From NCBI GenBank assembly GCA_027603945.1, contig JADIIU010000158.1:1-26608 (forward strand): a stretch of 26,608 nucleotides of DNA. Reading direction: 5' to 3'. Position numbers and translations under genes: made by a program. Shown in pieces: positions 1,722 through 25,538 of the stretch (position 1 is the first letter of the stretch; each line of letters starts with the position of its first letter). A model generated the notes under the pieces. It did not search any database. It saw only the letters and a program-made list of their open reading frames with translations, and had not been told where the DNA came from. This stretch comes from Terramyces sp. JEL0728 (taxonomy: Eukaryota > Chytridiomycota > Chytridiomycetes > Rhizophydiales > Terramycetaceae).

Positions 1722-3182
1722 ATGGGACAAGAGGTGGTGAAAATTGTAATCGTTGGATTCGGAATGGCAGCTGGCAATTTCATTGAACGACTGCTTGAAT
1801 ATGACAGCTGCAAAAGGTACGAAATACTTGTCTATGGCGAAGAGTCTCATGTTGGGTATTATGTAACTGCTTCTTGATAATAGCGCGTTGCACTTTCAAG
1901 TTATTTCGAAACTCGTGATTGCACAAGTCTGTACATGAAGCAGCATGAATGGCTAGATAGTCACGATGAAATCCAACTGCAGTACAGTACTAATTCTCTA
2001 GTCACAAGGATTGATCACAAGCACAAGTTAGTTTACACCACGGAAGAAATTCGCTCGTACGATATCCTAGTATTAGCAACCGGGAGTGTGCCATTTGTGC
2101 CGCCAGACATCGATATGAACATTAATGGGATATTTGTATTCCGCACCATAGAAAATGTTCAAGATATGATCGTGTACAGCCGTTCAATGAAAACTGTCAA
2201 AACTGTCAGACGCGCGGTAGTTGTAGGAGGTGGATTACTAGGGTTGGAAGCCGCAAATGCATTCTTGAAACTAGCTGTATTTGATCAGGTACTAGTACTG
2301 GAAAGGTCTCCCCACATATTGTCCAGACAAATTGATCTCGAATCTGCTAAAATTGTAACTTTAAAAATTGAAGCACTTGGAATATCAATCAAGCAAAACG
2401 CAAGTATCGACCGCATTGAAACAACGAATGGGAAAATAGTTGGTTTGTTTCTCAAGGGTGGTGAATACTACGACTGTCAAATGTTGTGTTTTGCAGTTGG
2501 TGTTCGGCCACGCGATCATGTAGCAAGACAAGCAGGAATTAATTGCCATCAAAATGGAGGAATATTGATTAATAGCCATTTGCAAACTAGCATTAAGGAT
2601 GTTTATGCTATTGGAGAGTGTGCAAATTTCAATGACAAGTGCTATGGTTTGTATTCCCCTGGATTCCAAATGGGAGATATACTGGCTTTCAACCTTACAC
2701 GAGACATAAAAAAATCATTTTTGGAACCAGATATGAGCACGAAATTGAAGCTTTTAGGAGTGAACGTTGCTTCTTTCGGAGATTACTTTGCAGACAAACG
2801 AAAGGTAGCCAGACATTTACGATAGAATGTGAAAACAATGATCTACAAGGATCCTTTTGGCAAGATTTACAAGAAATTGATTTTCACTCACGATGGCAAG
2901 TATCTGCTAGGCGGCATCTTGATTGGGGACATTCGAGACTACTTTAAGCTTGCAAGTTTGGCAAAATCCAAAGCAGAATTGCCAGACCCTGCGCAGTTGT
3001 TGAGGAAACCAAATATTGTTTGCAAGCACTTTAACCTGAGTGAATTGCTCACATTTGTAATGAAACAGCACCTGAATTCACGCTCTAACGCAGCAAAGCA
3101 TAAAGAATTGGAAGGATGCGCATGTAATCAGTTGATTGATTTGGTATTAAACAACATGAATCAAATAAACGCAAAATTGTAG
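1722..3182 (+). CDS. Truncated nitrite-reductase paralogue: stand-alone FAD/NAD(P)H half (472 aa)
   Basis: Exons are 1722-1862, 1884-2804 and 2826-3182; both introns are 21 nt and in phase 0. The protein matches the N-terminal flavoprotein half of the neighbouring nitrite reductase: FAD-binding VGFGMAAG, the RVAL-YFETR segment, LATGS, NAD(P)H-binding VVGGGLLGLEAA, and the AIGECANF/GDYFADK region through the KYLLGGILIGD segment. It then diverges and stops. The BFD-type Fe-S cysteines, siroheme/4Fe-4S domain and Rieske tail are all absent, so it cannot reduce nitrite by itself. The frame is intact and both introns sit where the full-length copy has its first two, so it looks like a tandem duplicate kept as a gene rather than a decayed one. 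Role unknown: it could be an electron donor, a regulator or a redundant diaphorase. The FAD loop has Ala in place of the third Gly of GxGxxG. Confidence 0.85.
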
Positions 3183-3504
3183 TTTTTTCGTGTTGGATGA
3201 GGCTCAACGAAACAATAAATTCAAAATAATCGTCACAATGCGGATTTCAATGGCATCGATTTGGCTCCTTGGCTGCCACTTAGTACCATGGAATTTGGAC
3301 AGAGACAGGCTGCTTTGCAATTTTTTCCGCATTTTGATAAGAACTGACCATGTGAAAAATTGGACATCAATGCAGAAAAACAAAAATCCAGGGGTTTCAA
3401 AATCGTCTCTGACGAGTGTGGCTTGTAGATAAAAATGATAGCGTAGTGATAAGCACGATTAGAATTCTATACATAAACCTCAATATTTCCAAACAGAAAT
3501 CAAA
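3183..3504 (+). promoter_or_regulatory. Intergenic promoter of nitrite reductase with three GATA motifs
   Basis: This 322-bp gap has no recognisable gene. It contains GATA cores at 3335-3341, 3427-3432 and 3447-3453, the last about 50 bp upstream of the nitrite reductase ATG at 3505. No remnant of the missing siroheme or Rieske domains of the truncated paralogue could be read in any frame, so the truncation seems clean rather than recent decay. Confidence 0.45.
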
Positions 3505-6500
3505 ATGACAAAGAATCAAAGGGAAAAAATTGCAGTGGTTGGATTTGGGATGGTTGGGATCAACTTTGTCGAAAAGTTGCTTGATTTAGATAGAGACCAC
3601 CAGTATGAAATTGTAATCTTTGGAGAAGAACCATACTTGCCATACAACGTAAGCCCACTCTAATTATAGCGCGTCGGATTGACAAAGTACTTTGAGACAA
3701 GGGAAATCTCATCCTTGTACATGAAGTCGCCAGAATGGTTTGATTCCCACCCGGATGACAAGCTGCTGCACTTTGTAGATATGCAAATTGTTGACATGGA
3801 CACTGAAAAGAAGACTCTAACTGCTTCTGATGGCTCGATCCACACTTACGACAAGTGTGTCTTGGCTACGGGCAGCTTTGCATTGATCCCAAAAACCACA
3901 CTCGGCTGGGATTCCAAAGGTGTATTTGTGTACCGCACTGTGCAAGATTTGAAAGACATGATCAAATTCAGTCAGCAGGGCGTAGATTTTGAAAACGCTT
4001 CTGTAAAGCGAGCTGTCGTATTTGGTGGTGGTCTGCTGGGTTTGGAAGCAGCTGCCGCCCTAAAGAATCTTGATAGGTTCGACGAGATTGATATCATGGA
4101 ACGCTCGTCGCATATTCTAGCGAGGCAAATCGATCCAACTGGCGCTTCCTTGGTTGTCAGTCAGGTTGAACAAATGGGAATCAAGATACACTGTGATGCA
4201 TTTGTAAATGAACTCGAAAAGAGTGCGGCCACCGACAAAGTCACTGCTATCAAATTCGAAAACGGCAATGTCTTGGAATGTCAAATGGTCTGCTTTGCTA
4301 TTGGTGTTCGAGCAAGGGATGAACTGGGAAAGAAAGCAGGTATTCAGTGCCATGAACGCGGAGGTGTAATTGTAAATTCAAAGCTGGAGACCTCTGCTCC
4401 AGATGTATATGCAATTGGTGAATGTGCCAACTTTGAACAATTTTCATATGGGTTGATTGCACCTGGTGTGGAAATGGCTGATATTCTGGCATTCAATTTG
4501 ACGGAAGCAAAGTTGCACCAACCTCGCTTGTTCAAAACTCCAGACATGAGCACTAAACTAAAGTTGCTGGGTGTCCATGTTGCTTCATTCGGCGATTACT
4601 TTGCAGACAAGTTTGGACCAAAGTTCATTCCAAAGACTCCAAAAACCAAAAAAGTAAAATGAAATTTACCCTAGTTGTCTACTGCCGATGTCAAAGCACT
4701 AGTGTTTGAAGACCCATTTGGAAACGTATACAAGAAATACTTGGTACATTTTGTTAATATAGTTTTCTGCTGATGGCAAGTATTTGCTGGGTGGGATCAT
4801 GATTGGAGATACAGCCGACTATTCCAAGCTGCTGTCAATGGTTAAATCATGCAAACCTCTAGAAATCCCTGCTGGTGAATTAATTGTTGGTTCTCCAACT
4901 GGGCCTGAAGACGCCAACGCAATGTCTGACGACACCCAAATATGTTCTTGCAACAATGTAAGTAAAGGGCAAATCGTTGGTGCCATCAAGAACAAGGAAT
5001 GCGATTCTATTGGAAAAGTCAAGAGCTGCACCAAAGCTGGAACTACTTGTGGAGGATGTCTTCCGGTTGTTCAGTCCGTCTTTGAAGCCACTATGAAATC
5101 GCTTGGAAACAATGTAAGCACTGCATTGTGCCATCACTATGAACACTCTCGTGTAGAACTATTCCACATGGTTTCTGTAAAGCAGCTAAAGACTCCAGTC
5201 CAAGTAATGCGCGAATGTGGAAAAGTCCCGGATGCGCTTGGATGCAGCATATGTAAGCCGGCTATTGCCAGTATTCTGGCCTCTTTGTGGAACACCCACA
5301 TTATGGATAGAACAGTTATTGGAAATCAGGATACCAATGACAAGTACCTTGGAAACATTCAGCGTAACGGAACCTACTCTATTGTACCTAGAGTCTCTGC
5401 CGGAGAAATCACTCCTGAAAAACTTATTGTGCTTGGGCAGGTGGCCAAAAAGTACAACTTGTACACCAAAATTACTGGTGGTCAGCGTATCGATTTATTT
5501 GGAGCCAAAAAGCACGATTTGCCAGAAATATGGGAAGAGCTGATTCAAGCTGGGTTTGAAAGTGGACATGCTTATGGCAAGTCTCTTCGCACTGTTAAAT
5601 CCTGTGTTGGATCAAACTGGTGCAGATATGGTGTTGGTGACTCTGTAGGTCTTGCTTTGGCTCTTGAAGAAAGATACAAGTCAATCAGAAGCCCACACAA
5701 ACTGAAGGGCGGTGTGTCTGGATGTGTTCGTGAATGCGCAGAAGCACAAGGAAAAGACTTTGGGCTGATTGCGACTGAAAAAGGGTACAACATTTATGTG
5801 TGTGGTAATGGTGGGTCAGTGCCGAAACATGCTCAACTATTGATTGCAAACGCTCCGCCGTCTCAGGTTATTCCGATCCTAGATCGATTCTTGATGTTTT
5901 ACATTCGCACTGCTGACAGACTCCAACGAACTGCACGTTGGCTGGAAAAGCTACCTGGTGGAATGGACTATTTAAAAAAGGTTATCCTTGATGATTCACT
6001 TGGTATTAATGCCGAATTGGAAAGGCAGATGCAAGGTTTAGTGAATTCCAACTTTTGCGAATGGACAGAAGTAGTCAAGGATCTCAAGAAGCGACAGCTG
6101 TTTAAACAATTCGCCAACACCGAAGATACCATTGAAACCATAGAGCTTGTCCAGGAAAGAGGGCAACTCCGGCCAGCCAATTGGCCCAAAATAGATCCTT
6201 CTGAAAACTTTAGAGATATCGAATGGTCTTCTCTTGAATGGGTTCCAATTGTATCTAAATCTAAGATGGTCCATTCTCAAACTGGCAGTAGCTGCAATAT
6301 CAAGTACGGTGATACTCAACTGGCAATCTTTTACCTGCCTGGAAAAGGATATTACTCTAGTCAGTCCATGTGCCCACACAAGAGAGCATTTGTCCTGCAT
6401 GATGGTCTGATTGGTGACGATGCTAATGGCAACCCAACGGTGACTTGTCCGTTGCACAAGCGAGAATACAATATTTCTACCGATGCTACACTAGGGGGCA

Positions 6501-6724
6501 CGAGTTCTGATCCTGCATTAACTGTCGCTACATTTGAAGTCAAAGAAGAAGAAGGAATGATTTACTTGCGCCTTCCGCCAATTGATGAAATTGACAGCAA
6601 ATTGGGAACTTCAAGATGGATGGTCCGACAAGGCGAAACTGAAAATCAACTTGATATCCAAACTTTAATCGGGAGAAACAAACCTTGTCCATCAGCATGT
6701 GAAAGTACTGATCTTAGTTGGTAA
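3505..6724 (+). CDS. niiA: NAD(P)H nitrite reductase, full length (1052 aa)
   Basis: The enzyme reduces nitrite to ammonium with six electrons in the cytosol. Exons are 3505-3648, 3670-4653, 4675-4743 and 4763-6724; the introns are 21, 21 and 19 nt, all phase 0. Domains in order are: FAD-binding (VGFGMVG near residue 13, then PYNRVGLTKYFETR across the first intron); NAD(P)H-binding (VVFGGGLLGLEAAAAL); BFD-like [2Fe-2S] with Cys460, Cys462, Cys495 and Cys498; nitrite/sulphite reductase domains with siroheme/4Fe-4S ligands Cys680, Cys686, Cys720 and Cys724; and a C-terminal Rieske domain with Cys936/His938 and Cys961/His964. Length and order match fungal NiiA/NIT-6. All cofactor cysteines are present, so it should be active. 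The ATG at 3505 is preceded by CAAA and gives the usual short N-terminus before the FAD motif. Confidence 0.97.
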
Positions 6725-6856
6725 TATAATTTTGTTTGATATATTTGCATTCTAGTTGTGTTGTCGATACTTTCCTGAGAGTTTCCTTGATAATTGGACA
6801 ATGTAAAGTTTTTTGGGAATTCAAAAGTAATTTGGTATGAAATATCTATTACCATA

Positions 6857-6945
6857 CTTGTAGTCGTCAAACCCCGCACCTGTAGTCGTCAAACCCCGCA
6901 CTTGTAGTCGTCAAACCTCGCACTTGTAGTTCGTCAAACCTCATA
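6857..6945. repeat. 22-bp minisatellite, four copies
   Basis: Four head-to-tail copies of a 22-bp unit with core TGTAGTCGTCAAACC lie at 6857-6878, 6879-6900, 6901-6922 and 6923-6945. The first two differ at one base and the fourth has one inserted T. A decayed fifth copy may follow to about 6965. The array sits between the convergent ends of nitrite reductase and the transporter, so it could lie in 3' UTRs or a termination zone. No coding frame runs through it. Confidence 0.85.
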
Positions 6946-7007
6946 TGTATAGTTATCAAATATCACTGCAAACTTTAAAAGATATTAATACGAAAAACAA
7001 GTATTTA

Positions 7008-8542
7008 TTAATAAGGCTTTGGTTGGCGGCCTTTGATAGGTATCCAGAATACAAGTAAATGGAAAGCAAGAATGATAATCCCATTGATCAATGTGCCTTT
7101 GAAATAATTTGTTCCATTAAATCGATACACAAGTCCAAAGATTATCCCACCAAGATTCCCAAAGGCGCCAACCATGCCAGAAACAACACCGTTATGTTCA
7201 GAGTTGAGGTGCGGCACGAGTGCATAGTTTGAACCGTTGCCAGCTTCCATCATCACAGCGAGAACAAAGAATAAACCAAATAAGCCGAGCACATGGATGT
7301 TTGGGAATAAACCAATGATAACCATTAGAACACCTTCAAATGTACCCAAGAATATCATCCACCATTTCTTTGACACTGGTTTGCCTGTTCTAAGGTATAA
7401 CAGATCGGCAACGATCCCTCCAAGCGGTCTGGTAAAGATATTTAGTAATCCAAATATAGCAGCGTACGGTCCTGCAACAGTTTCACCCCAGTTTAATCCG
7501 GATTTGGTTGATTGCTGTTGATACCAAGCAGATAGGATGCCTTCCAGTGCCAGCTCTGCCCCAAATGTACAGGCGTAGGGCAACCCAGCAAGCAAAGTCT
7601 CCAAGCTAAGTGCAGCTTTGAGTGCAGGCAGATATGTCTTTTCCAATTCAGTTGTTGAGGTAGATCTAGATGATATTTTGTTGGAGTTGGAAGCAACTTC
7701 AGATTCGGCAAGCGCAGTGAGATTTGCGTCAGAACTAACTCGAAGAATTGCAACTCCAGTTACAGGCGAAGATACTTCGAGATCATCTACTCTAGGTTCC
7801 TTTTCTTGGACGGCAAGCACTTCAACGATTATTCTATCTGACCATTTACCTTGTGGACAATCATCACCAAATACAAGCACGAGGATAGCAGTAGTGGTTA
7901 TAATCAGGAATGGGACAATCAAGAAAGCGACTCGCCAAGCAGTGGATATGGACATGTGACTGTTTTGAACAAGACTATTTACAACTGCTGGCATAACAAA
8001 AAATACAACACCTCCACCGGCATTACCCCATCCTCCAGCAAGGGCATTTGCAGTTCCAACCACAGACTTGTCAAAAAACGCCGTAACCCACACTTGACAT
8101 GGGACAAAGGTACCACCGAGTACTCCAATAAAGAATCTAAGGATCAGTAAGCCAGTTGCATCATGAACTGTGCCGGCCAAAGCAGTAGGTATAGCTCCTG
8201 CAAAGAGTAATCCAACCATAACCAGTCTTGGACCGAACCGGTCGCACAATGCACCAGTGACAGCCCTGACCAACAAGGTTGAAGTTAAACCGAGAACATT
8301 AGAGTTTGCAATATCAACAGCAGTAAGTTTCAGATCATCCTTGAGGGTATGAGCCAACTAAAGTTAAAAGTAAGTACCAGAGGTGGAAAGGCAAACCATG
8401 AAAAGAACGCAACAAAAAATCCAAGCCAAGACAAGTGAAAGTTTCTGGCGTACTTGTCTCCCAGGTTCAAGAGCGGAAGCGTCGTAGCTTTGTGATTCTT
8501 TGGGTTAACCACTGCAGGCTGAAATAAACTAGAAAATCGCAT
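7008..8542 (-). CDS. nrtA: High-affinity nitrate transporter, NRT2/NarK (MFS) family (504 aa)
   Basis: A plasma-membrane nitrate/nitrite-proton symporter. Exon 1 is 8542-8378 and exon 2 is 8357-7008, separated by a 20-nt intron (8358-8377) whose removal joins WFAFPPL to LAHTLKDDL, as in the family's first helix region. The nitrate signatures are present: GGTFVPCQVWVTAFFDKSVVG followed by a GGWGNAGGG motif in the first half, and GSNYALVPHL with GAFGNLGG in the second. About twelve hydrophobic segments can be counted, with a hydrophilic central loop of roughly 100 residues, as in fungal CrnA/NrtA proteins. It is convergent with nitrite reductase and completes uptake, nitrate reduction and nitrite reduction within one cluster. 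A TATATAAT element lies 25-32 bp upstream of the start. Confidence 0.95.
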
Positions 8543-8566
8543 TTTATTTCTGGGTATATTTCTAGT

Positions 8567-9791: not shown

Positions 9792-12700
9792 TCACATTTT
9801 GCCCAATAGAATTTCGTCAATCATACGATTCATCTGTTCTTTGCGAGGTTTCAAGTCAACTCCAAGCTTGGCGGACAAGTTATCTCTAATTTGTTTCTTT
9901 GTAAGTGTCATCAAATCAGCACCAACCAAAGATTGTTTGATTTCAAAGAACAACTGTTCATCTGTAATGACTCCACTGTTGGCTGGATATGGTCCAGGCA
10001 CACCAGCGCCAACCGGAGATGGTGAGTTGCCATACGATACCATTGACAAGTGTCTTGTATTAGTTGGCCCGTCATAAACTGAGCTGGCAGTGTAGTCATC
10101 GTGAAGAACTGGCGGCATACCGTGGCTTTTAACTGAAGACTGGAAGGAAGATCCTGATACGACAGATTCTTGTTCCCATAAATCATTCTCTTCGAAATCG
10201 CGCCATCTCTTCAACGGAATAGATTTAGGATCGAATGGCTCGGTATCAGCAAGATAGACAGTCTTTTTACCTTCACCAACAACCACACGAGTGTTACCCC
10301 ATGAAAAGTCATCAAAGTGCCAGAAAGAGTAACATGGAATCCAGAATGAAATGATTGGCATTGCAAGCAAGTAGATAAACATCCATGCAATGTGTTGCCA
10401 TTCTCTCTTGAGGACGAATATAATTACTTGAAGACCATAAATAGCTGAAATCAAAATAATCGAGAGCAGTGGGAATTGTTCAGTAGAAGTAATTGCAGCA
10501 TAGATCAAGTACCCGATATAAAGAATAGTGGCTGGAGCAACAAATGTGGCAAACAAATCCAACATTACAATGAAACGCATAGAGAAACAGCAGAAACCAC
10601 AAAGCTGTTCTAGTAGAATCAGCTCCAACAAGTTGTGGACAGTCGAGTTGATCCATCTACGTCTTTGAGACAACAACACAGCCCATCTATCTGGAGCAAC
10701 GGTGTAACAACGAGCCTCAGCAGCAAACTTGGTTTTCATTCTAGGGAAATGTTTCAGCAATAAGGTAGTCAAATATCTATCTTCGCCCAAGTGGAGCAAG
10801 TTTTGTTTGTGTAGAGTATCAACAGTGTTTTCAGCATAATCGGCAAGGATGCTTGGAGCCACCAAAACTGGGATATTCTTTGAAGCAGATCTAATACGGT
10901 ACATGGAGAAACAACCAGGTAAACAAGTAACCGACCCAAACAATGATTCGAATTGTTTTGCCAAATGATGGGAAATAAAGTATTCGTAAACCTATCATAA
11001 ATAGTCAATTACCTGAATCATAGTTACCCAAGAATCCTTTTCATTAGCAATCTTTGTTTCACCACAAAGACCCATAACAGTGGTATCATTCACCATCACA
11101 GACACCATCCTATTCAGCCCTGAGGCTTCTACTTCAGTATCAGCATCCACCATCAATATAAATTCATAGAAGCTGGGTGACACACCAATAATATTCTTCA
11201 TTTGATGGTACAGTTCCAATTCCATTGGAGAGAATTCAGAGTTGAAATGAACGCGGTTTAGGAAACGCATCAAACAAAGTTGGGAGTCACGCTTACCTCT
11301 GTTACCAGGCTTGCTACGTTCAGTTGGAGCACCACACTTGACAATAACAATGAATGGAACAGAGTGGCCACGAATTTCGTACAGACCAGAGTAAACTTTA
11401 CCCATATTGAATTGTTTGCTACCGTCACCCAAAGAGTTGAATGGCAGCGCTTCTGGGTTTTGAGAGTGGTCAACGCCAAGGATATCCAAAACGATACGCG
11501 GGGTTGGACGATCGTTGCCAGAACCGATAATCATACCATCACAAATAACAACCAGTAGTTTCCTCTTGTCGTCATATTTCAGCGTAGAGAGGGAATCAAT
11601 AGTTTTGGTCAGTGATTCGACACCTTCAGTATAACATGGAACCATCAAAATCACAAACTTGTCTGCAAGCTCAGGATCATGCTTGGCACCAAATTGGAGG
11701 GCTGCCAAGAACTTTACACCAATGACAGCAACCAGGAGAATGGAGGAACCAAAGAGCAAGTAGTTGGAAACACGACACTGGATTGTGTCACGACGATCAA
11801 CAGTGCCGATATAAAACATATTATTGATACAAGCCAACGAACCATCAAAGTTTGCATTCGTATTCGAGGCTCTAGCTGCCTTCCACTGTTTAGTAATATC
11901 TTTTCCTTGGTTGTTTGGCCCAAAGAGATCCATAATAGCCTGGTCAAAGACACCGCCCCCAAGAGTTAGCATAGTAGAAGTATAGTAAACATTATCAAAG
12001 AGAACAATATAAATCTGGGATTAGCAAAAAATACCTGCGAAGTAGATGAAATAGCATTAATAGTTTGCATGGACCAACCAATTCTCCCTTTGGCGTATTG
12101 GTACATGTTACCGAGATACTGCTGTGCCAAACCGTTTGGTGCCAATTGTCTGTGAGTAGTCTGGAAAGCTTGAGGAACAGTGTCACGTTTCATCCATTGG
12201 ATGTTGCTGTCCAAGTTATCCCACTTCTTGTTGGTTGGTGCAGGGATGCCTTTGCACAAGTTTGTCCAAGAGTCTTGCAAAAAGAATAAGTTAGAAACAT
12301 CCAATCCATAGAATTGCTCAAATCTAAAGTTTTGGATACCAGTAGGTCCTAAAGCAGAAACACCATAAGCTTTCTCGTGACTAGACATCAAGTCATCAAC
12401 ATAAAAGTATCTGCCATAAGCAGAAACCCATGGGTTTGGAGTTTTGCTTCCAAAGTTGGGTGTGGATTTCATCTGAACTTCACTCTGAGTCAATACCGGG
12501 ACTTGAGGACAAATGATGTAACGCATACCAATAATGATAAACAGTAAAGCACAACACATCAAGAAAATAATGATACATAATGCCACCTTTTCTCTCCATG
12601 CCATTCTAATATCTGGACGTTTCATGCCGCCGCACCATGAAAGGAATGGAGATGGAATCCACCAAGTAAAGAACCAAGTGCAGCAAACCCAGCATTTACG

Positions 12701-15353
12701 AGATCTAGTAATATCTTCAGTTCTGTCAATAATTTCTTGGTGAAGCTCTGGCTTAACATCGCCGCCTTTACCAAGTTCGATATCTTTCTTGGTTTTAGAG
12801 CCTCTTCCACGTGGATCGTCAGCATAGTTGTATTCAGAATCCATATTAGATTCAGCTTCAGAAAACATATCTTCTTCTCTTGGTGCGATACCTCTGACTT
12901 TGTCCCATTCAGACCCTTGATCGGATGTAGTGTAGTTTCCAGAGGAACGAGTTTCCAAGTTAACATCTCTGTTAATATGGCCATAGGCTTGCTCAATCCA
13001 TCTCCATTTGCTTGCAGAGAGGAACAGCATTGTATTACCATAGGCAACTTCGCGGGCAGGCCAGTATTGAGAGTTGATGAACTGTTTAACTTGATCGATA
13101 GATCCAGCCCCTCCTCTCGAAGAAATAGAAGTGCTAAGCAAGCTGCCATACTTTTTAATGAATGCATCATAAGTAATGCAGTCGCCCAAATCAATATCGT
13201 ATTGAGCTTTGAATGCAGCCAATTCACGGATATTTAGCAAAGCCAGCTGCTCTTTGACTCTGTTGGCATCAAATACACCACCAGGGGTTGCAGATGGCGA
13301 AAGACAAAAGATATTCCAGTGTTGAGAATCTTTTACTGCATCCAACAATGTTTCGACAGATGATTTTCCAGAACTGAATTGCAATTGTTTTTCTTCTGGA
13401 GTTGCATCCGCCTTCTTCTTTTTTCTCTTCATTGACGGTTGACGCAATGGTTCATTAGTCTTCTTTGCACCAGATACTCTTCCACTCTTGCCAGAGGTAA
13501 CTGCTTGGATACCATTTTGTTTAGAGAACAAGCTGGCAACAAAGGAGATTTCAGACTCGTCCTTGTCGACATTTAATGCAGCAGTAGAGCCTCTGAACAA
13601 GGAAACGAAATCAGCCATTACAGAGTCGTCGTCCAAGAAGGAATCAACATCATAGTCAACAGTAGGTCCTTGGAGGTAGTGTCGGATACCGAAAAGAGAT
13701 TTTGGACTTCCAGTGTTGGTGGCCATTCCAGATGCACATTTAGCAGAAGGAATAAAGTTTGGATTTGGCTTCAAAGTGCTATCAAGATTAGCAACCATTT
13801 CCTTTGCAACAGTAGAGTCAGCTGGGACATCCAAAGCACTAGCTTTGTCCAAAAGCGAGAACAGACCTGGGATTCTAGTTGTGCCTTCATACAAATCAAT
13901 TACGGATTGGTTATCTGGATAATCTGAAGAAATAACAGAAATTCCTTGCGCTTTGAATAAATCTATAGTGCGGTCAAAGTTTTCATTGTGAATGTAATGG
14001 ATCAATCTTTCTTGGCAGTAGTTGTAGTAGAATGTATCCAATTTAGCAAATGGGGTTCCAGCCTGCGATTCTTGGAACCATGGGAAATCTAGTACACCAA
14101 TGGTACAGTCAACTTCGGCTTCAGGCTTGCATAGTCTTTCATTCAAATGTTCAATAATCCAAGTAAACATCAAGGAGTATAAAACTTGGGCCAAAGCATC
14201 TCTTTGGTCAGAAGCACCATCTTCCTTCAAGAAAGAAGAGAAAGTATCAGTTCCCATCATCTTGGATTTGTACAAGATTGTATTTTGCAGTGATTCAGAT
14301 GATACACCTAATAACTGAGCAATCAAATGTAAAGTATCCATGTTCTTGATAGTACATGCTTCGTTTGGCTTCTTGTCGTCATCGACAAAGATCAAATTGC
14401 CCAAATGAAGAATACCAGCCAACACTTTGAAAATTTGTGCTTGGATACGTTTACCAACACCTAGTGATTTCAGATTATCGCGCAGCAACTCAAACTTTTG
14501 AGCATCTTCGGTAGTAGGAGTTGCATCTGCACTTGCAGCAGGAGTGGCAGGCTTCTTGCCGATGGATTTAGATCTGCCCAAAGTAAGCTTTCTTCCCAAA
14601 GATACACTTCTGCTTAGTGTTTGAGTAACAGCGTACGCACCTTTAGTGTAAACAAAAATAGAAGGATCGGTAATAAATAGAGCTTGCTTTTCTTCGGCAG
14701 TTGCGCCAGCCAACAATTGATAAAAAATGTTGAACGGTCTTTCGCCGTCCAAGAGAGATTGTCCATTGATGACTCTCCCCTTGTTCAATCCATAGTCGAG
14801 TAATTTCACACCAACCATTCTACCAGCATCCGAGTACTGATATTCAGTATAGCGTCCGAAAGCGGAAGCACCAACAGAATTTGATGATTTATAAGCCCCA
14901 AATGCATCCAACAAAGGTTCCATTTTAGCAGCTCCAGACAAAACCTTTGACTTTTTTTTCCCATTCTTTGCAACATCGATCAGCTGCTTTGAAAGGATCA
15001 TTCTGTTTTGCGACTTTCCAGATCCAGCTTGTCCACTAGATTAATAATAATTACATGAAAACTACTGTTTGATCTTGTTTTTTTTGTATCATCAAATTGA
15101 ATGCGTCGGAAGCTATTTGCAGGACGTGAGGAGATAGAGAATTTACACTGTCGTCAGCAAACTTTTGTTCAGAAACAGAAGCATACTTTTGGCCGTTACC
15201 GTCCTGCGATCCAAGGACAAGCAGATTATTTGATCCGATGAATGTTGCGGAGCGCTGGACAGCGAACCTTTCCTGTAGAGTATAAGTTACATCTGTATCT
15301 TTATTTTGCGACAAATAGAGAGCAACGTCGTCGGTCTGAGTTGCCCAATCCAT
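9792..15353 (-). CDS. Chitin synthase with N-terminal myosin-like domain (class V/VII type, 1833 aa)
   Basis: A plasma-membrane enzyme that polymerises UDP-GlcNAc into chitin at growth sites. Exons are 15353-15055, 15035-12035, 12014-11013 and 10991-9792; introns are 19, 20 and 21 nt. The N-terminal half is myosin-motor-like, with P-loop GQAGSGKS at residues 101-108. The switch I region ([11 protein letters not shown] near 152) and switch II region (LDFPWF near 416) depart from the myosin consensus. Then come a transmembrane pair around [13 protein letters not shown], a cytochrome-b5-like stretch, more helices and the catalytic domain with the DADTE, EDRYLT and QRRRW motifs. A C-terminal DEK_C domain closes the protein. 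The order and length match fungal myosin-motor chitin synthases. The start MDWATQTDD resembles the family N-terminus; no ATG lies in frame upstream. Confidence 0.95.
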
Positions 15354-15930: not shown

Positions 15931-16661
15931 TTAGAATAACTTGAACTTTTTCCTTCTGGCAAGCATATACGCACTAACAAGCGACAATGAAAACCTACAT
16001 GAAAAACACTTACCACGTAATAGCATACTCCATATGATTATTCTTGAAATTAGCAGCCGGCACTCGTAACAGCAAAACATCTCTCTTATTAACCACAGAA
16101 TCTACATTAATATTACTCACCCGCCGTTAATTCAACTAGGATGGGTTCTGAATCAGTTTCTTTGGCCATGGATTCTAAATCTACAGAGTACCACAAGTTA
16201 TTTTGTGGTTCGTTTTTTAGCCGCATCGAGCTATTAGATTCACCTTGCCGTAAACACCCTTCAATTTCAATTTCACCTTTGATTGCTCTGTTTTTATCTA
16301 GGTCATCTCTGGATATCCAACCACGGTTTACTAGTATTTGTTTGCCAGATGTTAATTTGAATGGGGTTATGCACAAGTATCCTGAATTCGTTATATGCTC
16401 TGTTTGTGGATCGTAGTAGCCATGCTGGTTTCTTGGCCTTACCCCGCATAGCATTTCCTTTTCATTTAAATATTCTCCTGCTTCTTTTATCCGCATGAAT
16501 TGTTTTTCATTTGTGATTTCATCTGGTAGTTTATTTGTCTGTTTCTGGAGCCGTTCTGCCTGCGCGATTAGGTTTTGTTTCCACTGGAGTCTCTGTATTT
16601 CCCATATTCCTAATCCTGTTGTTGTTAATGGTACTGCCCACAAGAAATTTATTTTACTCAT
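15931..16661 (-). CDS. SHY1: SURF1/Shy1-type cytochrome c oxidase assembly protein (230 aa)
   Basis: An inner-mitochondrial-membrane protein needed for heme a insertion and Cox1 maturation in complex IV. Exons are 16661-16121, 16101-16014 and 15994-15931; both introns are 19 nt. The family pattern is clear: an N-terminal membrane segment ending GLGIWEIQRLQWK, VRPRN, then LTSGKQILVNRGWI and a C-terminal NFKNNHMEYAITW that continues, after the last intron, into a second membrane helix (FSLSLVSAYML) and a basic tail. The intermembrane-space domain lies between the two helices. The protein starts almost directly at the first helix and shows no separate presequence. An additional 5' exon was looked for and not found, but a TATA-like element 40 bp upstream supports this start. 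Convergence with fungal SURF1 motifs is strong. Confidence 0.92.
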
Positions 16662-16777: not shown

Positions 16778-18053
16778 TCAATGTAGGGCAGCGTATTTCC
16801 AAGCAGCAACAGCGCCAGCCAGAGTTTCTTTGCCAGCAGGAACAATATACTTTGCAGGCAGCAGGAATCCACCACCCAAGAACCCGGTTGGCCTCAATTC
16901 AACAGCAAACGAATACTTTACGCCCAACTCTTGGTAGATATAATCAACACTTGACCCAGATGCTTGATAAATGGTGTTACAGATATCTCGTTACTAATCA
17001 ATTACCTCCATTTTTGAATCGCAGACCGTTAACTGATTTGATTGCTTTGACTGCTGCATTGGACGCATTCATCAAATCTTTTTCATCCTTGTTCTTGTAA
17101 TTGCAATCATGGCCAAAAGGAAACATGAATAGCTGGCTGTAAGCATGGAAATCGATATAGGAAACTACATTTGACAGAGACCTGATGTAATTTGTTATTG
17201 CCTGTACTTCTTTTGAGCTGCCTGGCGATGGACCATAGAAAGCGTCAGAGCAAGGATCACCAGAAGCACCTGGTTTACTCCAAGCAAACGGAAAGTTTCT
17301 ATTAGGATCAGTTCCTGCATTAGCATCCATTACCTATACAACCACCATAAGGTTCTCTGTTTTTCCTATTCATTCGATCTCCTTTAGGGTTTCTCGTATA
17401 GTCATATCCGTCAACATTCAAAACTGGGATGACATGAAAAGTGAATTGTTTGCGCAAGTAAATAGAATCTTTGTCTGTGCCTATTTATAAGTCTCGTGCA
17501 TACCTTTACTGATAGCGTTTGCAATGTAGACAACAGTCGCTGGGCCAATCCATTCTCTAGCATGAATTCCACCGTGAAAAACAATATTTTTATCACCAGT
17601 GCCAAACTTTACTCCATTAATTTCAGCGCCTAGAAAGGTTTTCCCCAAGTAAATCTTTTCACTATCCGGAAGAGTCTCCAAAAACGATTGGTAAACCAGT
17701 GTATCTTGGTAATCAGAAAATATCCGTTCTTCGCTGAGTGTAAAATCATCCTTGAATTTCAGCATATTATCAATCGAGTATTTGGCTTCCTCATCGACTC
17801 GTTTTTGCACGTCGTCAATATAGATTCTGCTCTTGATTCCAATTGCTTTTGACTTTATTTCATTGTCGAGTGATTTAGGGACACGCACGTCTACCATGCC
17901 GATTGTATTTTCAGTCCATAGATCTAGATGGTACTGATCAACCAGATTGGAGAGTAATTGTTGCTGGGATTTTGTATCAATTTCAAAGCGGTACACTTTG
18001 CCTTCGTATTTCTTTTTGCAATAGACTGACAATAAAAGAAGGAAAATATTCAT
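16778..18053 (-). CDS. M14 zinc carboxypeptidase (carboxypeptidase A-like, 404 aa)
   Basis: A secreted or vacuolar exopeptidase that removes C-terminal residues. Exons are 18053-17504, 17480-17334, 17314-17006 and 16986-16778; introns are 23, 19 and 19 nt. A short hydrophobic start ([12 protein letters not shown]) may be a signal peptide, followed by an activation propeptide and then the catalytic domain. Zinc ligands are His164 and Glu167 (HGGIHAREW) and His289 (IDFHAYSQ). The Asn-Arg of TDPNRNF fits the substrate-binding motif, and the catalytic Glu is Glu365 (FAVELRPTG). Length is normal for a pro-carboxypeptidase A. The 23-nt intron is the longest in the window. TATAAAG lies at 18084-18090, 31 bp upstream of the ATG. 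The signal peptide is short, so its cleavage is uncertain. Confidence 0.94.
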
Positions 18054-18357: not shown

Positions 18358-20194
18358 ATGCAAAGACTGATAGTCTACGGAAAACACAACTTTCTAGCAG
18401 AAGAAAGCGACGAAATATCATTCAAAGCAGGTGAGCCTATCATAGTCCTTGAAAAAGATGAAAATTTTGGAGACGGATGGTGGACTGGCCAGAATATGAA
18501 TGGAGATGTGGGAATATTTCCAATGAACTTTGTTACTCTGAACAATAATCCGAATTCTGCAAAGTCTAATTTGGATATATTGCTGGAGGATTTGGAAACT
18601 GTGGAATTTCCGGATGATAATGTCTACCAATGGGATTGCAATCGAGTTGCAGATTTCATTTCATCAATCGGTTTCGATAACTTGAAGCATTTATTTATTG
18701 GTAAATATTACTAATTTAGAACATAATGTCGATGGAGCAAGATTGTTGGATAGCACTATTGCTAGTTTGAGGATGATTGGTGTCGATGTGCTGGCGAATA
18801 GAGTCAGAATAATGCATGAAGTTATTACTTTAAAAGAGACGCACAGAAAAGACGATCAATCTGATACAACGGACATTGAAATTCATGATAATCAAGTAGA
18901 AATCGGAGTAGATACAATCAGAGATACTACCGAATACATAGATAGCCATATAGAACCAGAGAAAAATACTACAGCTCCATTTGCAACAGATGGCGACAGT
19001 CCAAACACTCCAGAAACAGAGACGAGCCACAATATTCCAAAATCAAATATAGATTCTGTAATTAGGAAATATGAATATTTACCAGATATTATCCCGGAAC
19101 CATCTCTAGATTTCTCTGAAACTGACCAGGAAATAGAAAGGGAAGCCGGCCCTACAAAAGAAGATCAAATCCTAACATCCCAAATAAGACTCTCGGACCA
19201 AGTCATAAATGGAATGAGCCAAGATATAAGATACTCTGATCCAAAATCAGAGGAAATCCAAGCAGACTTGGCCTACTCTGATACTAGTTCGCAAGATCAA
19301 GATATACCCAGAATGACAAATTTAGCAGACTCTGAATTTGACTTTGAGTTTGAAAAGACTCTTGGAGAAATTAAATTGTCTGAAAAGTTGATTAAAGAGA
19401 AATTGATTGAAAAAGAAGAGGAAAAAGAACGAGAATTAAAGCAGCTGCCATTGATACCAGAGGACAGTGTTAAAACAGTAAGCGGTGCTAACAATAGATT
19501 AATGAAGAAATTGAAATTATGGATTACTATGCACCAGAAAAAACAACTTCACTAAACATTAATACCAAAATGCACAATGATTTCAAAATGTTTGCCGTAA
19601 AACAAAAACGATCCAGGTACACGTTTTTAATCCTAGTATCGCTCAATCAATGTCGACCCTGACTAGAAAGCTTTCGCTACGAAGAGAATCTAACGCAATC
19701 CCGGTCCCACAGTTTGACGACAGTAATCTAAGAGCATACCTACAGGTCAAACAAGAATCAGAATTAATGTCGCATAGAAAGAAATGCATCCTAAAAGCAT
19801 CATCAATCTACATATTCAAAAAAGATGTACATATTATTAACTGTAGGACCAGCAGCTATCGCAAATTGTACATTTAAACGATCCTTCGTCAATCTTGCCA
19901 TCAGACAAACCAAATTCATTCATGATTAAAGATACAATCAACCAAACCAAAACTGCCTTTACTTGTTCAACACAATTAGAAATGATTACGTGGGTAAACA
20001 AGCTAGTTAGGGCTACTCAACCGCCGATACATAAATCACCGTTGATACCGATAAAGAACGCTAATAGGGGGCATTTAAAGGACGGGATTATGGGAAAGAC
20101 TGTTAAATTGCAAGAAATTAAACGGCCAGCTAGTTTTATGGGGAAAGCTAAATTCATGCCGGAACGGTACAAGCGATACTCTTTAGAACAATAA
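18358..20194 (+). CDS. SH3-SAM-PH protein, Boi1/Boi2/Pob1-like (585 aa)
   Basis: Exons are 18358-18700, 18720-19477, 19498-19616, 19637-19826 and 19847-20194; introns are 19, 20, 20 and 20 nt. Residues 1-60 form an SH3 domain (ALYDF-like YGKHNFLAEESDEISF, then DGWWTGQ and GIFPMNFV). Residues about 90-155 form a SAM domain (WDCNRVADFISSIGF... LLDSTIASLRMIGV), split by the first intron. A long acidic, low-complexity middle part follows, with one charged helix rich in Lys and Glu. A PH domain sits near residues 436-530 (LRAYLQVKQ to EMITWVNKLVRA). This order is that of Boi-family polarity proteins, which link exocytosis and Cdc42 signalling at growth sites. The yeast proteins carry a proline-rich middle that is not obvious here. 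Function in polarity is inferred from architecture. Confidence 0.85.
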
Positions 20195-20291: not shown

Positions 20292-21638
20292 TTATACATT
20301 GGTTTTACTTAGATGAGCTTGAGAATTTTGAAACAATGATTTCCACATGAAAGCCTCACTCAACAACAGCTCAACATCTTTTTCCTGCCAATCTTGCGTC
20401 GGTAACGATTGTAAATGCATCATAATATCCTAAATTAGAGCCACTTACTTGAAATTCCATCTTTTTCAATGTTGCACTCCACTTGATCAGAAAAGCTGCA
20501 CAAACGTACAAGTGGAATTCAGAGAACGAGTCGTTGCCGTCAGCCTGCGTTAATTCAACGTACCAAGTACGAATCCCACATACGGATAATCAGGTTGAGT
20601 GATATTTCTCGCATTAGCAAACAATTCATCCATCTGAACGCGAATTGAATGAATTCCACTCCTTGTTGCTGTAAATGCTGGGATAATGGTGCTTGATAAG
20701 GAAACAATTACCATCCACTCTAGTGATAAGTTCTTTTAGTCGCGATATTTGTCTGGTAATCCCAGGCTGCGCATGTGTATAATTGTCTTGAATACCATCC
20801 AACAGTTTAGTCAGACACCAATACGAATCGGCTTCGACATTTGTCAATTGTTCTTTTGATAGCGACTCCAGTGTATTATTTTCGATATTTTCTGGAATGT
20901 ATTCTAGTAGGAACACCTGAAAAAATGGAGTCAGCAAGTCGTTTATTCCTTGTACATATCCTGAAGCCGGGTGCCTGATTGCCCAGACGTATAGTATTCG
21001 TTCTAGCGATTGTTGCGCGATAGGACTTTGATATAGTACTATATGAGCATTGGTTCTTTGAATATCTATATGTATCTGGATTAAGATCAAGTACTTGGTG
21101 TGACAACTGTTGATCTAGACCTGCTGTGCCTCTAGAAAACGATTGCGATACAAATTCCTCATATTCTTTTCTTTTTCTTGACAATGTTGCCTCTCTCCTG
21201 TCTGAATTTGCTGGAAGGTACCCCTGGATTAAATAAAATCACCATTAGCAGTTTCCACACTGTCGGTCTGATTTCATCGGGTATCCCTGGCCAAGCTAGT
21301 TTCCTTAGTATTTCAAAGTCAAGATTTGGCATATCTAGTAAATCTTTAAATTTCTTGCATCTGATAGACAGCGAATTCAGTTTCGCAATTTCCTGTTCCA
21401 TCTTTTGCTCTTGCGTTTGCACTACAGGAGCTTGTTAATTACTGCATTACTTTCTTTCTTTTTGCTCATTTCTTGCTTTTCGTGTACTTGGTGATCGTTT
21501 GTATAACTGGTTAAGATTCGGGTACCTCTTTACTCCTAAGATTCCTGTTCCTAATCCAATTGCGGTGCGATCCTGACCTATCGATTTGAAGGAAATATTG
21601 TTTGGCTTTGGAGCTTCTTTCCAAAGATTTGTTGCCAT
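20292..21638 (-). CDS. GYP1: TBC-domain Rab GTPase-activating protein, Gyp1/TBC1D22 type (403 aa)
   Basis: It stimulates GTP hydrolysis by Rab/Ypt proteins in Golgi traffic. Eight exons: 21638-21526, 21506-21451, 21430-21243, 21223-21095, 21075-20712, 20691-20564, 20544-20449 and 20429-20292. The seven introns (19, 20, 19, 19, 20, 19 and 19 nt) make this the most intron-dense gene here. The TBC domain starts near residue 97 (LAWPGIPDEIRPTVWKLL, GYLPANSDRREATL). The arginine finger is Arg169 in IHIDIQRT and the glutamine finger is Gln204 in GYVQGIND, so both catalytic residues are present. VEFIQFAFRWMNCLLMRE, then FHLYVCAAFLIKW, match the TBC1D22/Gyp1 subfamily. The chosen ATG (MATNLWKEA) has an A-rich context. 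Splicing the first two introns together is what restores the frame. Confidence 0.93.
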
Positions 21639-21901
21639 TTTTTGTATTTGTTGGAGTGGCTTTCCACCCACATTGTTGAGTTAGCTGAGTGGCATTAGTG
21701 CTATCGATTATAGCTGAGTGGCATTAGTGCTATCGATTATAGCTGAGTGGCATTAGTGCTATCGATTATAGCTGAGTGTATCGATTATAGCTGATTAAGA
21801 TAGCAGTATTCTCATCCTAGAAAATCAAAAACTAAGTGAATCTCAAAGAATCCACTCTAAAAGCCTACGGATAATGCGGTATTTGCTGGTTTATTAAACT
21901 A
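21639..21901. promoter_or_regulatory. Upstream region of the TBC gene, carrying a minisatellite
   Basis: 263 bp between the KEX1 stop and the TBC start. The array at 21683-21796 takes up almost half of it. No TATA element could be placed. KEX1 and TBC are in the same orientation, so the KEX1 terminator also has to lie here. Confidence 0.4.
21683..21796. repeat. 29-bp minisatellite, three full copies plus shortened copies
   Basis: Three identical 29-bp units (AGCTGAGTGG to ATCGATTAT) lie at 21683-21711, 21712-21740 and 21741-21769. A fourth copy at 21770-21788 has an internal 10-bp deletion, and a fifth fragment runs to 21796. Perfect identity suggests recent expansion. Each full unit contains an ATCGAT palindrome. 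It lies 45-160 bp upstream of the TBC gene start. Confidence 0.9.
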
Positions 21902-23625
21902 CTATTCAAGCCTTCTTCTTTCCTCCATCTCCAGATCTTCTTCATCCTCTGGAACAGAATCCCTGCATTAACCAAAATTACCATTGCGGAGGCTTGCGTT
22001 GTCTGATGATTTTCATAACGTAAACAGCACCAACTACCACTCCTAGCACAGCAAACATGATATAGAAACCTGTTAGCAATGATATTGGTGGGTCTGATGG
22101 CTGCGGTGGTGCTTCAGCTTCAGGCCACTAATATTAAATAATTGTACCTCCGGTTTAATAGACGCAACTACTTTTTCAATTTTTGTTGGTTCAGGAAGTA
22201 TTGTTTCGACAGTTGGCACAAGAGTATCAACAGGCACTTGACTTTCAACTGTCTTTGCAGGTGGAGTGTCTGCAGCTGTATCATTCCTAATATTCAAAAT
22301 ACGGGAAATCATATCAAGCGTGGCTTCTGGTTGATCGAAAGCAGACATATGAGAACCATCAAAAATAGTGTACAGTGATAAATTTCTATCCTTTGTAATT
22401 GTGCCTACCATCTCATCGTCCAATCGCCATTCTTCTGGTTCAGTCTACGTTAAAATAATGTACTTTAAATCCTTTATTTCCATTCCACTCCATGTATTGA
22501 ATCATATTTTTGATTCCAATAATATTACAAATCAAGTCCTTGTCTCCCACAAACATTACTACCTCAATTTTAGAGAGTAGATGAGGGAATAATGTAGCCG
22601 AAGATAGGGTATTTTCACTTGCTAAACTGGAATATACTCTCCCATTACATTCAGTTAAGGTGCTGTAGTTTTGAGACTCTACGTGCAAACCCTTCTGAGT
22701 ATCATGCAGAGATAAATATTTAGCCATGTCGTATACACCAGGCGGCCAAGACATTCCGCAACCTTCATTAGGTCCATGATCTCGCAATCTAATGTCATAC
22801 TTGTTTAAACAGAACCCTCCGTCTTTAACGGAAGCTTGCATAATAACATCCATAATCTTTTCACAGTGTTGGCTTGAAATCAGGTATGGATTTAGTTTTA
22901 ACTCTTTCTTGCAAAGATCCATGTACCCCTGCGCAACAGTCAAATCACTTCCTTTCAAAAGTCCATGTGTTTGAGCAAACACTAGATATGCCGGGTACTG
23001 AGTTAAATAAAAGTATACTTGATACCGAGGGTCCATCCATCCATTTCCAATAACCAGCCCTTTGAGATTAAACCCTTTCTTATCCGCTGCCGCAGCTACT
23101 ATTACATCTAACTTGCCATCATTATTTTTCAAGATCGCATCCGCAAAATATGGAATCCAAATTCCTGCAAAGCTTTCTCCAGATAAATACAGATCAAATG
23201 GAATAAATTCGGGATATGTTTGGTAAAAATTGTGCAAGAAATCCATAAAGTGCTCCACAACTTCCTGGTTAGTACTGGAATATTTTCCTACTGAATATCC
23301 TGTTCCTGCTGGTTGGTCAATATATACCACATTTGCATGTCGACTCCAATGATATGGATTGTAGGTTAGTGTTCCATTCATTCTCAAAGGACCATTTTCC
23401 AAAAAGAATCCATCCATCGATGTACACCCTTAATTTAACTGATAATAACCCTAAATTAAACCAAAATACTGGCCCGCCATTAAACCAAAAAATCAATTTA
23501 TTGGATTGCTTGTTTGCGGATAAAATATGAAAATATTGGCTGTCAAGTGCTTTAATAAATCCAGAATATAAATCCAACTTGTCCAGGACTTGCTGATCCA
23601 ATTTTGGCAAGCTTGTAATTTTCAT
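21902..23625 (-). CDS. KEX1: KEX1-like serine carboxypeptidase (S10 family, 541 aa) with an apparent 1-nt exon
   Basis: A late-Golgi enzyme that trims C-terminal Lys/Arg from secreted proteins. Exons are 23625-23470, 23450 (one base), 23428-22464, 22444-22148, 22127-21982 and 21962-21902; introns are 19, 21, 19, 20 and 19 nt. The catalytic triad is Ser138 (LSGESFAG), Asp350 (VGDKDLICN) and His406 (DGSHMSAFDQPE). The oxyanion motif NGGPGCTS is encoded across the one-base exon. A membrane helix near residues 491-510 (FYIMFAVLGVVVGAVYV) and an acidic cytosolic tail identify the KEX1 branch rather than soluble carboxypeptidase Y. No signal peptide precedes SLPKLDQQ from this ATG, although KEX1 needs one, so a further 5' exon may be missing. 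See findings for the one-base exon. Confidence 0.9.
23427..23472 (-). other. Double intron with one-nucleotide exon in KEX1
   Basis: Between the codon CCA (23472-23470) and TGT lies sequence that must contribute only one or three G to complete Gly53. Canonical splicing of a 19-nt intron (23469-23451) and a 21-nt intron (23449-23429) leaves a single G (23450), giving CCA-G-GG-TGT, that is Pro-Gly-Cys. A single intron ending at an AG cannot produce this frame. Confidence 0.65.
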
Positions 23626-24086
23626 GATTTGATTCAATCAGAAAAATGTGGGAAAATAATTGGGAATTTGGTAGATGGCAGTCTCAGACTATATCAACTA
23701 CTTATTCATTATTGGAGAGCACCAAATTAGGTCAATCACAAGAATAGGTTTGAATGGTCCTTTTTAATGACAATAATTTTATAGCTGGGGTTAGCCAGCA
23801 TTCAATTTACAAATTTCTAATGACATGGAATTTTACTTTTAATGTTTTCACCTTCCTTTGCAGGATCAAGGAATCAACGTGTTCTCTTCAAAATACCGAT
23901 GGGCTATCTTTTTAGACTTCTTTCCAAATCAAATTGGCAAATTCCATCGTTCAGATGTAACACTGCATACTAAATCCTTGATGTTGCTTGGACCGCCATT
24001 ATCGATTGTGTATCTGAACAATGTGGCGATAACATACAATGTCAACAAACTACAAATATAAAATGTGAAAGAAACTCTAAACGTTA
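23626..24086. other. 461-bp interval between KEX1 and Ser/Thr-rich gene
   Basis: No family could be recognised. A plus-strand ATG at 23646, only 20 bp from the KEX1 start, opens a 33-codon frame rich in Trp, Ser and Thr ending at 23747. Further plus-strand open stretches run to 24061, and a minus-strand hydrophobic stretch lies at 23929-24060. I could not join either into a convincing gene with 18-23-nt introns. TATAAAAT at 24057-24064 is the likely core promoter of the next gene. Confidence 0.35.
24057..24064 (+). promoter_or_regulatory. TATA element of the Ser/Thr-rich wall protein gene
   Basis: TATAAAAT, 23-30 bp upstream of the ATG at 24087. The same short spacing is seen in the transporter and carboxypeptidase promoters, implying very short 5' UTRs in this genome. 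Confidence 0.5.
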
Positions 24087-24758: not shown

Positions 24759-24893
24759 ATAAATATTTGTACAATTGATCTTGGGTATTTCTTTTAGGAA
24801 AGCTGAACTATTACAGATCTGATTTACATGTTGCAAAGGGCTCTTAGTACTTACAATGGTCCTCATTATCCAAGAGGAAAACAATATATTATA

Positions 24894-25538
24894 TCAATCA
24901 GTGGTTTCAAGAGACTCTATTGCCAAAGTAATTAGCTGCAAGGCAGCCTTGTTTAACTCTTGCTGGCTATATGGATAGTCCACAGGAGGTAAATGTACAA
25001 ATAACGAAGACCCATCTTTCACTGCATACAAAGAAGCGCAGTAAATAAATTCACAGAGGAATCTTCCGGCATCAATCGAAGGAACAATTTCTACATTGGG
25101 GTTCATTCTTTCTGCCAACAGTTCAACATTAATACTTGTAGTGTATTGATCTTGTGCATCTTTAGAGTGGATACATTTTCCATTTCTAGGAATTTGGCCG
25201 CTATATTACTATTGAACTACTCTATATCTTTAGATTGATAATTGTCGTTGTGTGCTACAGTTTCCAGTTTTATGGCACCTTGGACACCAACGCCAAAGTG
25301 GATGGCTAGTGATGGATTCAACTCATTAACTAGTTGCGGAATGACATTACTAACATGCTCGTATCTAACTGGGATGTGGATTTTTCTGATTTTGAATCTG
25401 ATTAACTAAAAGTACCCATCGATTTCATCCGGTATTGTCTTTACTGCCTCCCAAGATGGATTTACTTCTACGGTTCCAAATGGCTATGTTAAAATTACAT
25501 ACTCCGCACCCAGTGACTAATATTGTTTTGTTGCTCAT
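24894..25538 (-). CDS. pcp: Pyroglutamyl-peptidase I (C15 family, 195 aa)
   Basis: A cytosolic cysteine peptidase that removes N-terminal pyroglutamate. Exons are 25538-25503, 25483-25416, 25397-25221 and 25200-24894; introns are 19, 18 and 20 nt. The start MSNKTILVTG followed by GPFGTVEVNPSWEAV matches the family N-terminus once the first intron is removed. The catalytic triad is Glu80 (IKLETVAHN), Cys142 (DAGRFLCEFI) and His162 (LFVHLPPV), at spacings close to the bacterial enzymes. Length is normal. In the usual GFxPFG motif the residue after Gly is Cys here (TGCGPFG). The second intron, at 18 nt, is the smallest in the window. The start codon lies 25 bp from that of the divergent MZT1 gene. 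Confidence 0.93.

Follow-up and report, generated by a model that had tools for sequence, protein, structure and literature searches.

How short can the introns of a fungal nuclear genome be? The question is raised by contig 158 of the 15.0-Mb, 231-contig assembly of the chytrid Terramyces sp. JEL0728 (the window, analysed over its full 26,608 bases), in which ten genes are interrupted by 34 introns of 18-23 nucleotides (nt). A sample of 269,610 bases from seven contigs, composed of the window, 200 kb taken from contig 1 and 43 kb spread over five further contigs, and equal to 1.8% of the genome, was analysed for the same feature; all introns described here are predictions from sequence. They are very probably U2-type spliceosomal introns that have been compressed to approximately 19-22 nt in the nuclear genome of this organism. 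Their layout is a GTAATT-like donor, a YTAAY branch word with its A at position 14, 15 or 16 of the intron, a tail of mostly 5-6 nt and a (T/C)AG end.

An earlier note on the window had listed 33 introns in the ten genes, and all of these were recovered on rebuilding, with lengths of 18 nt (one), 19 (16), 20 (nine), 21 (six) and 23 (one), with 30 GTA, two GTG and one GTT starts, and with AG at every 3' end. The ten spliced frames are divisible by three, as had been stated, and each has an ATG start and a single terminal stop. Every member and length of that list stands, but it was incomplete: a 34th intron of 21 nt (22998-23018), in frame and free of stop codons, had been overlooked, and its seven codons are absent from the deposited protein P0083 and from the Boothiomyces JEL0866 orthologue P0084. 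GT-AG ends are present in 34/34 introns, 31 of which start with GTA; the 3' ends are TAG (21), CAG (nine), AAG (three) and GAG (one), and phases 0, 1 and 2 are represented by 19, 8 and 7 introns, respectively. The branch-like element described before the AG is also borne out, as a YYRAY word with its A at 14-16 occurs in 25 of the 34 and places it at exactly 14 in 20. Before training, the gene finder's proposals for the window included 11 introns in the 17-24 nt class, one of them false, and their number rose once its splice model had been trained. On its own it misplaced introns, choosing 43, 29, 43, 26 and 44 nt where introns of 19-20 nt restore the protein motifs, and it placed false introns at gene ends; because the misplaced introns were settled by hand from protein motifs, the following list is curated rather than automatic. 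Each line gives the coordinates, the strand, the predicted gene, intron or exon, and the basis of the assignment.

1722-3182, + strand, NirB-like FAD oxidoreductase gene
1863..1883, +, intron of 21 nt, Pyr_redox_2 across the junction
2805..2825, +, intron of 21 nt, curated frame
3505-6724, + strand, nitrite reductase gene
3649..3669, +, intron of 21 nt, Pyr_redox_2 across the junction
4654..4674, +, intron of 21 nt, curated frame
4744..4762, +, intron of 19 nt, Rubredoxin_C across the junction
7008-8542, - strand, MFS transporter gene (Pfam; the 'nitrate' type is the author's reading)
8358..8377, -, intron of 20 nt, curated frame
9792-15353, - strand, chitin synthase gene with myosin motor
15036..15054, -, intron of 19 nt, continuous with P0001
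12015..12034, -, intron of 20 nt, homologue alignment
10992..11012, -, intron of 21 nt, homologue alignment
15931-16661, - strand, SURF1 gene
16102..16120, -, intron of 19 nt, spanned by SURF1 domain 10-215
15995..16013, -, intron of 19 nt, curated frame and Pfam scan
16778-18053, - strand, M14 carboxypeptidase gene
17481..17503, -, intron of 23 nt, spanned by Peptidase_M14
17315..17333, -, intron of 19 nt, frame and Pfam scan
16987..17005, -, intron of 19 nt, frame and Pfam scan (gene finder alone: 43 nt)
18358-20194, + strand, SH3-SAM-PH gene
18701..18719, +, intron of 19 nt, spanned by SAM domain
19478..19497, +, intron of 20 nt, gene finder and frame
19617..19636, +, intron of 20 nt, gene finder and frame
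19827..19846, +, intron of 20 nt, spanned by PH match 451-527 (just below cut-off)
20292-21638, - strand, RabGAP-TBC gene
21507..21525, -, intron of 19 nt, continuous with P0207, variable region
21431..21450, -, intron of 20 nt, Boothiomyces two residues longer at the junction
21224..21242, -, intron of 19 nt, frame and homologue alignment
21076..21094, -, intron of 19 nt, frame and homologue alignment
20692..20711, -, intron of 20 nt, homologue alignment (gene finder alone: 43 nt)
20545..20563, -, intron of 19 nt, homologue alignment (gene finder alone: 26 nt)
20430..20448, -, intron of 19 nt, frame and homologue alignment
21902-23625, - strand, serine carboxypeptidase (KEX1-like) gene
23451..23469, -, intron of 19 nt, left of the 1-nt exon, frame and motif enumeration
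23450..23450, -, predicted 1-nt exon (G), sole GT-AG solution keeping the frame and FNGGPGCTSMDG
23429..23449, -, intron of 21 nt, right of the 1-nt exon, frame and motif enumeration
22998..23018, -, intron of 21 nt, new with respect to the earlier list, absent from P0083 and P0084
22445..22463, -, intron of 19 nt, frame and homologue alignment
22128..22147, -, intron of 20 nt, homologue alignment (gene finder: 44 nt)
21963..21981, -, intron of 19 nt, frame and homologue alignment
24894-25538, - strand, pyroglutamyl peptidase gene
25484..25502, -, intron of 19 nt, spanned by Peptidase_C15
25398..25415, -, intron of 18 nt, frame and Pfam scan
25201..25220, -, intron of 20 nt, frame and Pfam scan

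Splice joins had been said to fall inside conserved regions, and this agrees with the protein comparisons. A Pfam scan of nine of the ten spliced proteins matched the expected families, with several domains spanning junctions, although the PH domain of the SH3-SAM-PH protein lies slightly below its cut-off; the tenth protein, the chitin synthase, was identified through relatives, being 93% identical to a Boothiomyces sp. JEL0838 protein over 1833 residues. Alignments with homologues were made for three proteins and cover 16 junctions (seven in RabGAP, six in KEX1 and three in chitin synthase); in the database search with the KEX1 protein, the query still carried the seven codons that belong to the 34th intron. 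The first RabGAP junction is in a variable region, the second falls two residues short of Boothiomyces and KEX1 junction 5 is shorter by one residue. The other aligned junctions, except for the two at the KEX1 1-nt exon, are continuous wherever the homologue covers them fully. The observation of introns of about 20 nt in the window is confirmed and extended by these predictions.

In order to place these introns in the genome, a length histogram of the kind suggested earlier was made for the seven-contig sample, and the same size class appeared in all seven contigs. As the gene finder accepts GT-AG exclusively, its specificity was judged by running seven decoy dinucleotide pairs under the same conditions, with all lengths from 12 to 300 nt equally likely and the dinucleotides as the sole splice signal. 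With GT-AG, 101 of the 207 introns were of 17-24 nt; six of the decoy pairs gave 6, 13, 12, 15, 19 and 11 in this class, and the count of the seventh is given below. A longer class was also sought, and in the ranges of 25-60, 61-120 and 121-300 nt GT-AG gave 24, 20 and 55 introns against 50-76, 35-47 and 50-64 for the decoys. GT-AG predictions above 24 nt are not above the decoys, and the sample therefore does not point to longer introns; a length distribution with its centre at 50-100 nt, which had been named as the result that would overturn the observation, was looked for in the sample and not found. With a trained splice model (GT-AG, lengths of 14-300 nt), 150 of 242 introns were of 17-24 nt and 144 of these of 19-22 nt, the individual lengths being 17 nt (one), 19 (29), 20 (60), 21 (39), 22 (16), 23 (four) and 24 (one). 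The loci of actin, Prp8, SF1, U2AF and Aquarius, which lie on other contigs, have the same kind of intron, together with scattered longer predictions. A gene that is present on contigs 199 and 111 in almost identical copies has the same intron at 21 nt (L025:1513-1533) and 20 nt (L026:1513-1532), with one T of difference. The features by which ultra-short-intron genomes are recognized include a narrow length range below approximately 25 nt, here 18-23 nt in the window with a peak of 19-22 nt in the sample, and the absence of longer introns, here within the 1.8% sampled.

A further such feature, documented for Stentor, is a near-fixed position of the branch A, and this was measured without gene models by counting GTA, a gap, [TC]TAA[CT], 1-3 bases and [TC]AG on both strands of the 270 kb for every gap. 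The branch A falls at position 14, 15 and 16 in 105, 54 and 20 sites, respectively, over a background with a mean of 4.9 and a maximum of 12 sites (33 positions). The lower edge at 14 is abrupt, with a single site at 13; position 17 has three sites and position 10 has 13. No spacing signal appears in the same sample at positions 27-306, where the mean of 5.1, variance of 5.8 and maximum of 14 are approximately those of chance. The first AG follows the branch A mostly after 5 or 6 nt, and for position 15 also after 4. Among the 150 trained-model introns of 17-24 nt, the A is at 14, 15, 16 and 17 in 54, 40, 16 and three, and the word is absent in 37; their donor consensus is GTAATT with no preference for G at +5 (T 75, A 26, C 25, G 24), a base that is common there in the donors of other eukaryotes. 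The strict motif matches 19 of the 34 window introns, and this rate, applied to the excess of about 164 sites, gives about 290 introns in the sample and, by rough extrapolation, about 16,000 in the genome, or approximately one per kb. The distance from donor to branch resembles a ruler that has a floor, and the tail behind it is mostly 5-6 nt long.

In one gene, an exon of a single nucleotide appears to be required, between introns of 19 and 21 nt. The motif FNGGPGCTSMDG of the KEX1-like gene is obtained only when the introns at 23451-23469 and 23429-23449 are both removed and the G at 23450 is retained. The enumeration covered one-intron solutions from GT or GC to AG with a minimum of 10 nt, and pairs of GT-AG introns with a minimum of 15 nt each. 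The sole competitor is a 49-nt GC-AG intron, which preserves the frame at the cost of GPG in the motif, so that the GT-AG solution is unique and the frame demands the single base. Both flanking introns were already in the earlier list, in which the exon between them went unmentioned. A stwintron is an intron nested within the splice site of another intron, and this arrangement was rejected, since both KEX1 introns are complete GT-AG units parted by one frame-required base. All three deposited Terramycetaceae models examined fail at the site: P0083 begins past it, P0085 leaves it out along with over 100 residues, and 13 additional residues, VISTNPGSILVNS, are retained in P0084. This insertion would back-translate to a 19-nt intron with its branch A at 14, a G and a 20-nt intron, and the arrangement may accordingly be common to two genera. 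A second apparent 1-nt exon, on C1, was rejected because one 20-nt intron restores a zinc-cluster-like motif there, as judged by eye.

Boothiomyces and Terramyces both belong to the Terramycetaceae (Rhizophydiales, Chytridiomycota), and several of these intron segments are missing from the proteins deposited for the organism and for its relatives. The RabGAP models P0203 (Boothiomyces JEL0866) and P0207 (B. macroporosus) end exactly at the sixth and fifth introns of the Terramyces gene, and the ending of P0207, GTIH followed by a stop, would fit read-through into a GTAC...TTAA intron with its A at 14. In the deposited Terramyces KEX1 protein, P0083, which is named 'Cell death protease', a longer intron replaces a 19-nt one and removes 33 residues that are present in three relatives. 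This comparison indicates that some of the tiny introns are already in the deposited annotation and that others were missed.

How could such introns be spliced? The donor, at approximately positions 1-8, would be read first by U1 and next by U6, and the branch, at approximately positions 9-15, first by SF1 and next by U2. If the two recognition helices abut, position 14 would be the closest possible branch, and the sharp floor would be explained. The whole intron would be recognized as a single short unit, the first AG downstream of the branch would serve as the 3' splice site, and the lariat set free would have a loop of 14-16 nt. A 1-nt exon could be tolerated if its flanking introns are removed successively, as no reading across the exon would be needed. 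Human complexes need about 50 nt between the 5' splice site and the branch, and Smu1 and RED are required for activation at short distance, as reported in part of PMC6692369. Compared with the 14 nt found here, this suggests that some step of the assembly path should differ, either through altered parts or through standard parts more freely used.

Several observations weigh against the reading as compressed U2-type introns. The TA-GG decoy pair reached 30 in the 17-24 nt class, a count that was retained and that perhaps reflects landing next to true introns. Nine of the 34 window introns have no YYRAY word at 14-16, and 92 of the 242 trained-model introns are outside 17-24 nt, thinly spread over 15-300 nt. 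Aquarius needs intron sequence ahead of the branch, which it contacts in human introns farther out than these introns reach. U1 was not found by its Rfam model with 41 of 233 candidates scored and no positive control, and neither was U6, with 48 of 1328 candidates scored and again no positive control. The 92 introns, together with the longer introns of deposited gene models such as KEX1, would favour an ordinary fungal intron distribution, in which the tiny introns would be a minority found locally or would arise falsely when frames are joined. That explanation is largely refuted and very improbable: by the decoy comparison the 92 were judged, as a class, to be noise; the spacing signal is confined to 14-16; each of the seven sequences has 5-11 strict-motif sites per 10 kb; and the longer KEX1 intron costs residues that relatives keep. 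Least credible of all is that the segments are something other than introns removed by a spliceosome, as GT-AG ends combined with a branch word at a constant position are hallmarks of spliceosomal introns, Boothiomyces models appear to have introns at these sites, and core splicing factors are encoded.

The suggestion that the spliceosome of this organism may be unusual holds for its geometry, measured as the branch A at 14-16, and stays conjectural as regards altered parts; core factors are present. U2 small nuclear RNA, examined as had been proposed, scores 140 bits to its model with an intact GUAGUA; the main open exon of Prp8, of 1409 residues, is collinear with residues 114-1514 of human Prp8; SF1 and Aquarius were found in the genome, as was the large subunit of U2AF (U2AF2), at 251.7 bits and below the curated family cut-off of 310.3. 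These factors, the GT-AG ends and the branch word upstream of the 3' AG are what is expected of U2-type introns. A spliceosome altered in its parts, with changed U1/U6 recognition and loss of factors of the RED-Smu1 type, beyond its accepted spacing, is compatible with compressed U2-type introns, though on balance doubtful. The human need for about 50 nt and for Smu1 and RED (PMC6692369, in part), the lack of a +5 G preference and the failure to detect U1, U6 and RED_N speak for it; collinear Prp8, intact U2 and retained Aquarius speak against it. U6 also escaped two core patterns and a search with the human sequence, with no positive control, and the genome search for RED_N gave no candidate, with exons scored apart and no positive control. 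These negatives show little, given the lack of controls and an assembly that may be incomplete; U6 may have diverged, may be interrupted by an intron or may lie outside the assembled sequence. Candidates for U6 were rejected: the Rfam hits on C199 and C111 lie in the duplicated stretch, which is coding by eye, and overlap its 21/20-nt intron; an exact 17-nt stem-loop match on C59 is in DNA that looks coding and has no Rfam match; and of five hits to a two-mismatch pattern, the two inspected, on C11 and C87, have no ACAGAGA. A core pattern at three mismatches gave one further hit. The boldest extension, a re-engineered Terramycetaceae spliceosome with a 14-nt-floor ruler, changed U1/U6 recognition and loss of RED-type factors that splices introns one nucleotide apart, is rather unlikely.

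The window has other features. A nitrate-assimilation-like cluster at 61-8542 contains a molybdopterin oxidoreductase with a Mo-co dimerisation domain, the short NirB-like FAD protein, the MFS transporter and, beside the NirB-like protein, a full nitrite reductase with a Rieske domain. Near the RabGAP gene is an intronless MOZART1 gene (25564-25749), and the Polyrhizophydium protein P0205 is listed with both RabGAP and MOZART1 domains, perhaps as a fused model of adjoining genes. A tandem repeat at 26080-26608, of 3.8 copies of a 138-bp unit, carries a serine-rich reading frame that reaches the contig end, and intergenic tandem repeats are found at 6856-6954 (22-bp unit) and 21682-21797 (29-bp unit).

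Tiny introns are known as a class from other eukaryotes, and the sources cited here are used in part. At about 20 nt, the predicted Terramyces introns come near the lower limit recorded for any organism. The introns of Stentor coeruleus are likewise GT-AG, AT-rich and near-fixed in length and branch A, with a 5-nt tail and a core spliceosome; they are 15-16 nt long, have the branch A mostly at 10 (10 or 11) with a weak branch consensus, and occur in 18% of genes (PMC9505925). Terramyces, in contrast, is a fungus with introns of 19-22 nt, the A at 14-16, a clear YTAAY and about one intron per kb. Chlorarachniophyte nucleomorphs have introns of nearly the same range, 18-21 nt, and also many of them, but a nucleomorph is the vestigial nucleus of an endosymbiont, with about 300 genes that contain introns (PMC10245619), whereas the Terramyces introns belong to the principal genome of a fungus of 15 Mb. 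Mikrocytos mackini resembles Terramyces in the extremely narrow range (16-17 nt) and conserved sequence of its introns; this reduced parasite has 224 of them (PMC10245619), against the roughly 16,000 extrapolated here. Paramecium, a ciliate, is like Terramyces in that the whole genome has only ultra-short introns, which are longer, at about 25 nt (PMC5014332). In a survey of 644 fungal genomes, the mean of 63 nt in Cryptococcus is termed relatively short; chytrids are intron-rich there too, and nothing near 20 nt is seen in the part of the survey used (PMC8476143). A single-nucleotide exon is reported in Arabidopsis (PMC4674806); the predicted Terramyces one is flanked by introns of about 20 nt. 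The earlier statement that no fungus was known to be described with so uniform a set agrees with searches of open-licence papers, in which none was found among the best-ranked results; a description elsewhere is possible. As far as searched, novelty lies in the fungal occurrence, in this geometry and in the 1-nt exon that is predicted.

Comparative studies of Terramycetaceae proteins inherit errors, as deposited models stop early at these introns or span them with longer ones. Introns this small previously came from ciliates, nucleomorphs and a rhizarian parasite, and the fungal case is nearer to the spliceosomes whose structures are known, those of yeast and human. It raises the question of what the minimum distance between 5' splice site and branch is, and what must yield to reach it, with about 50 nt in human complexes (PMC6692369, in part) and 14 here. 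Terramyces offers a fungal test case for the smallest intron that a splicing machine handles.

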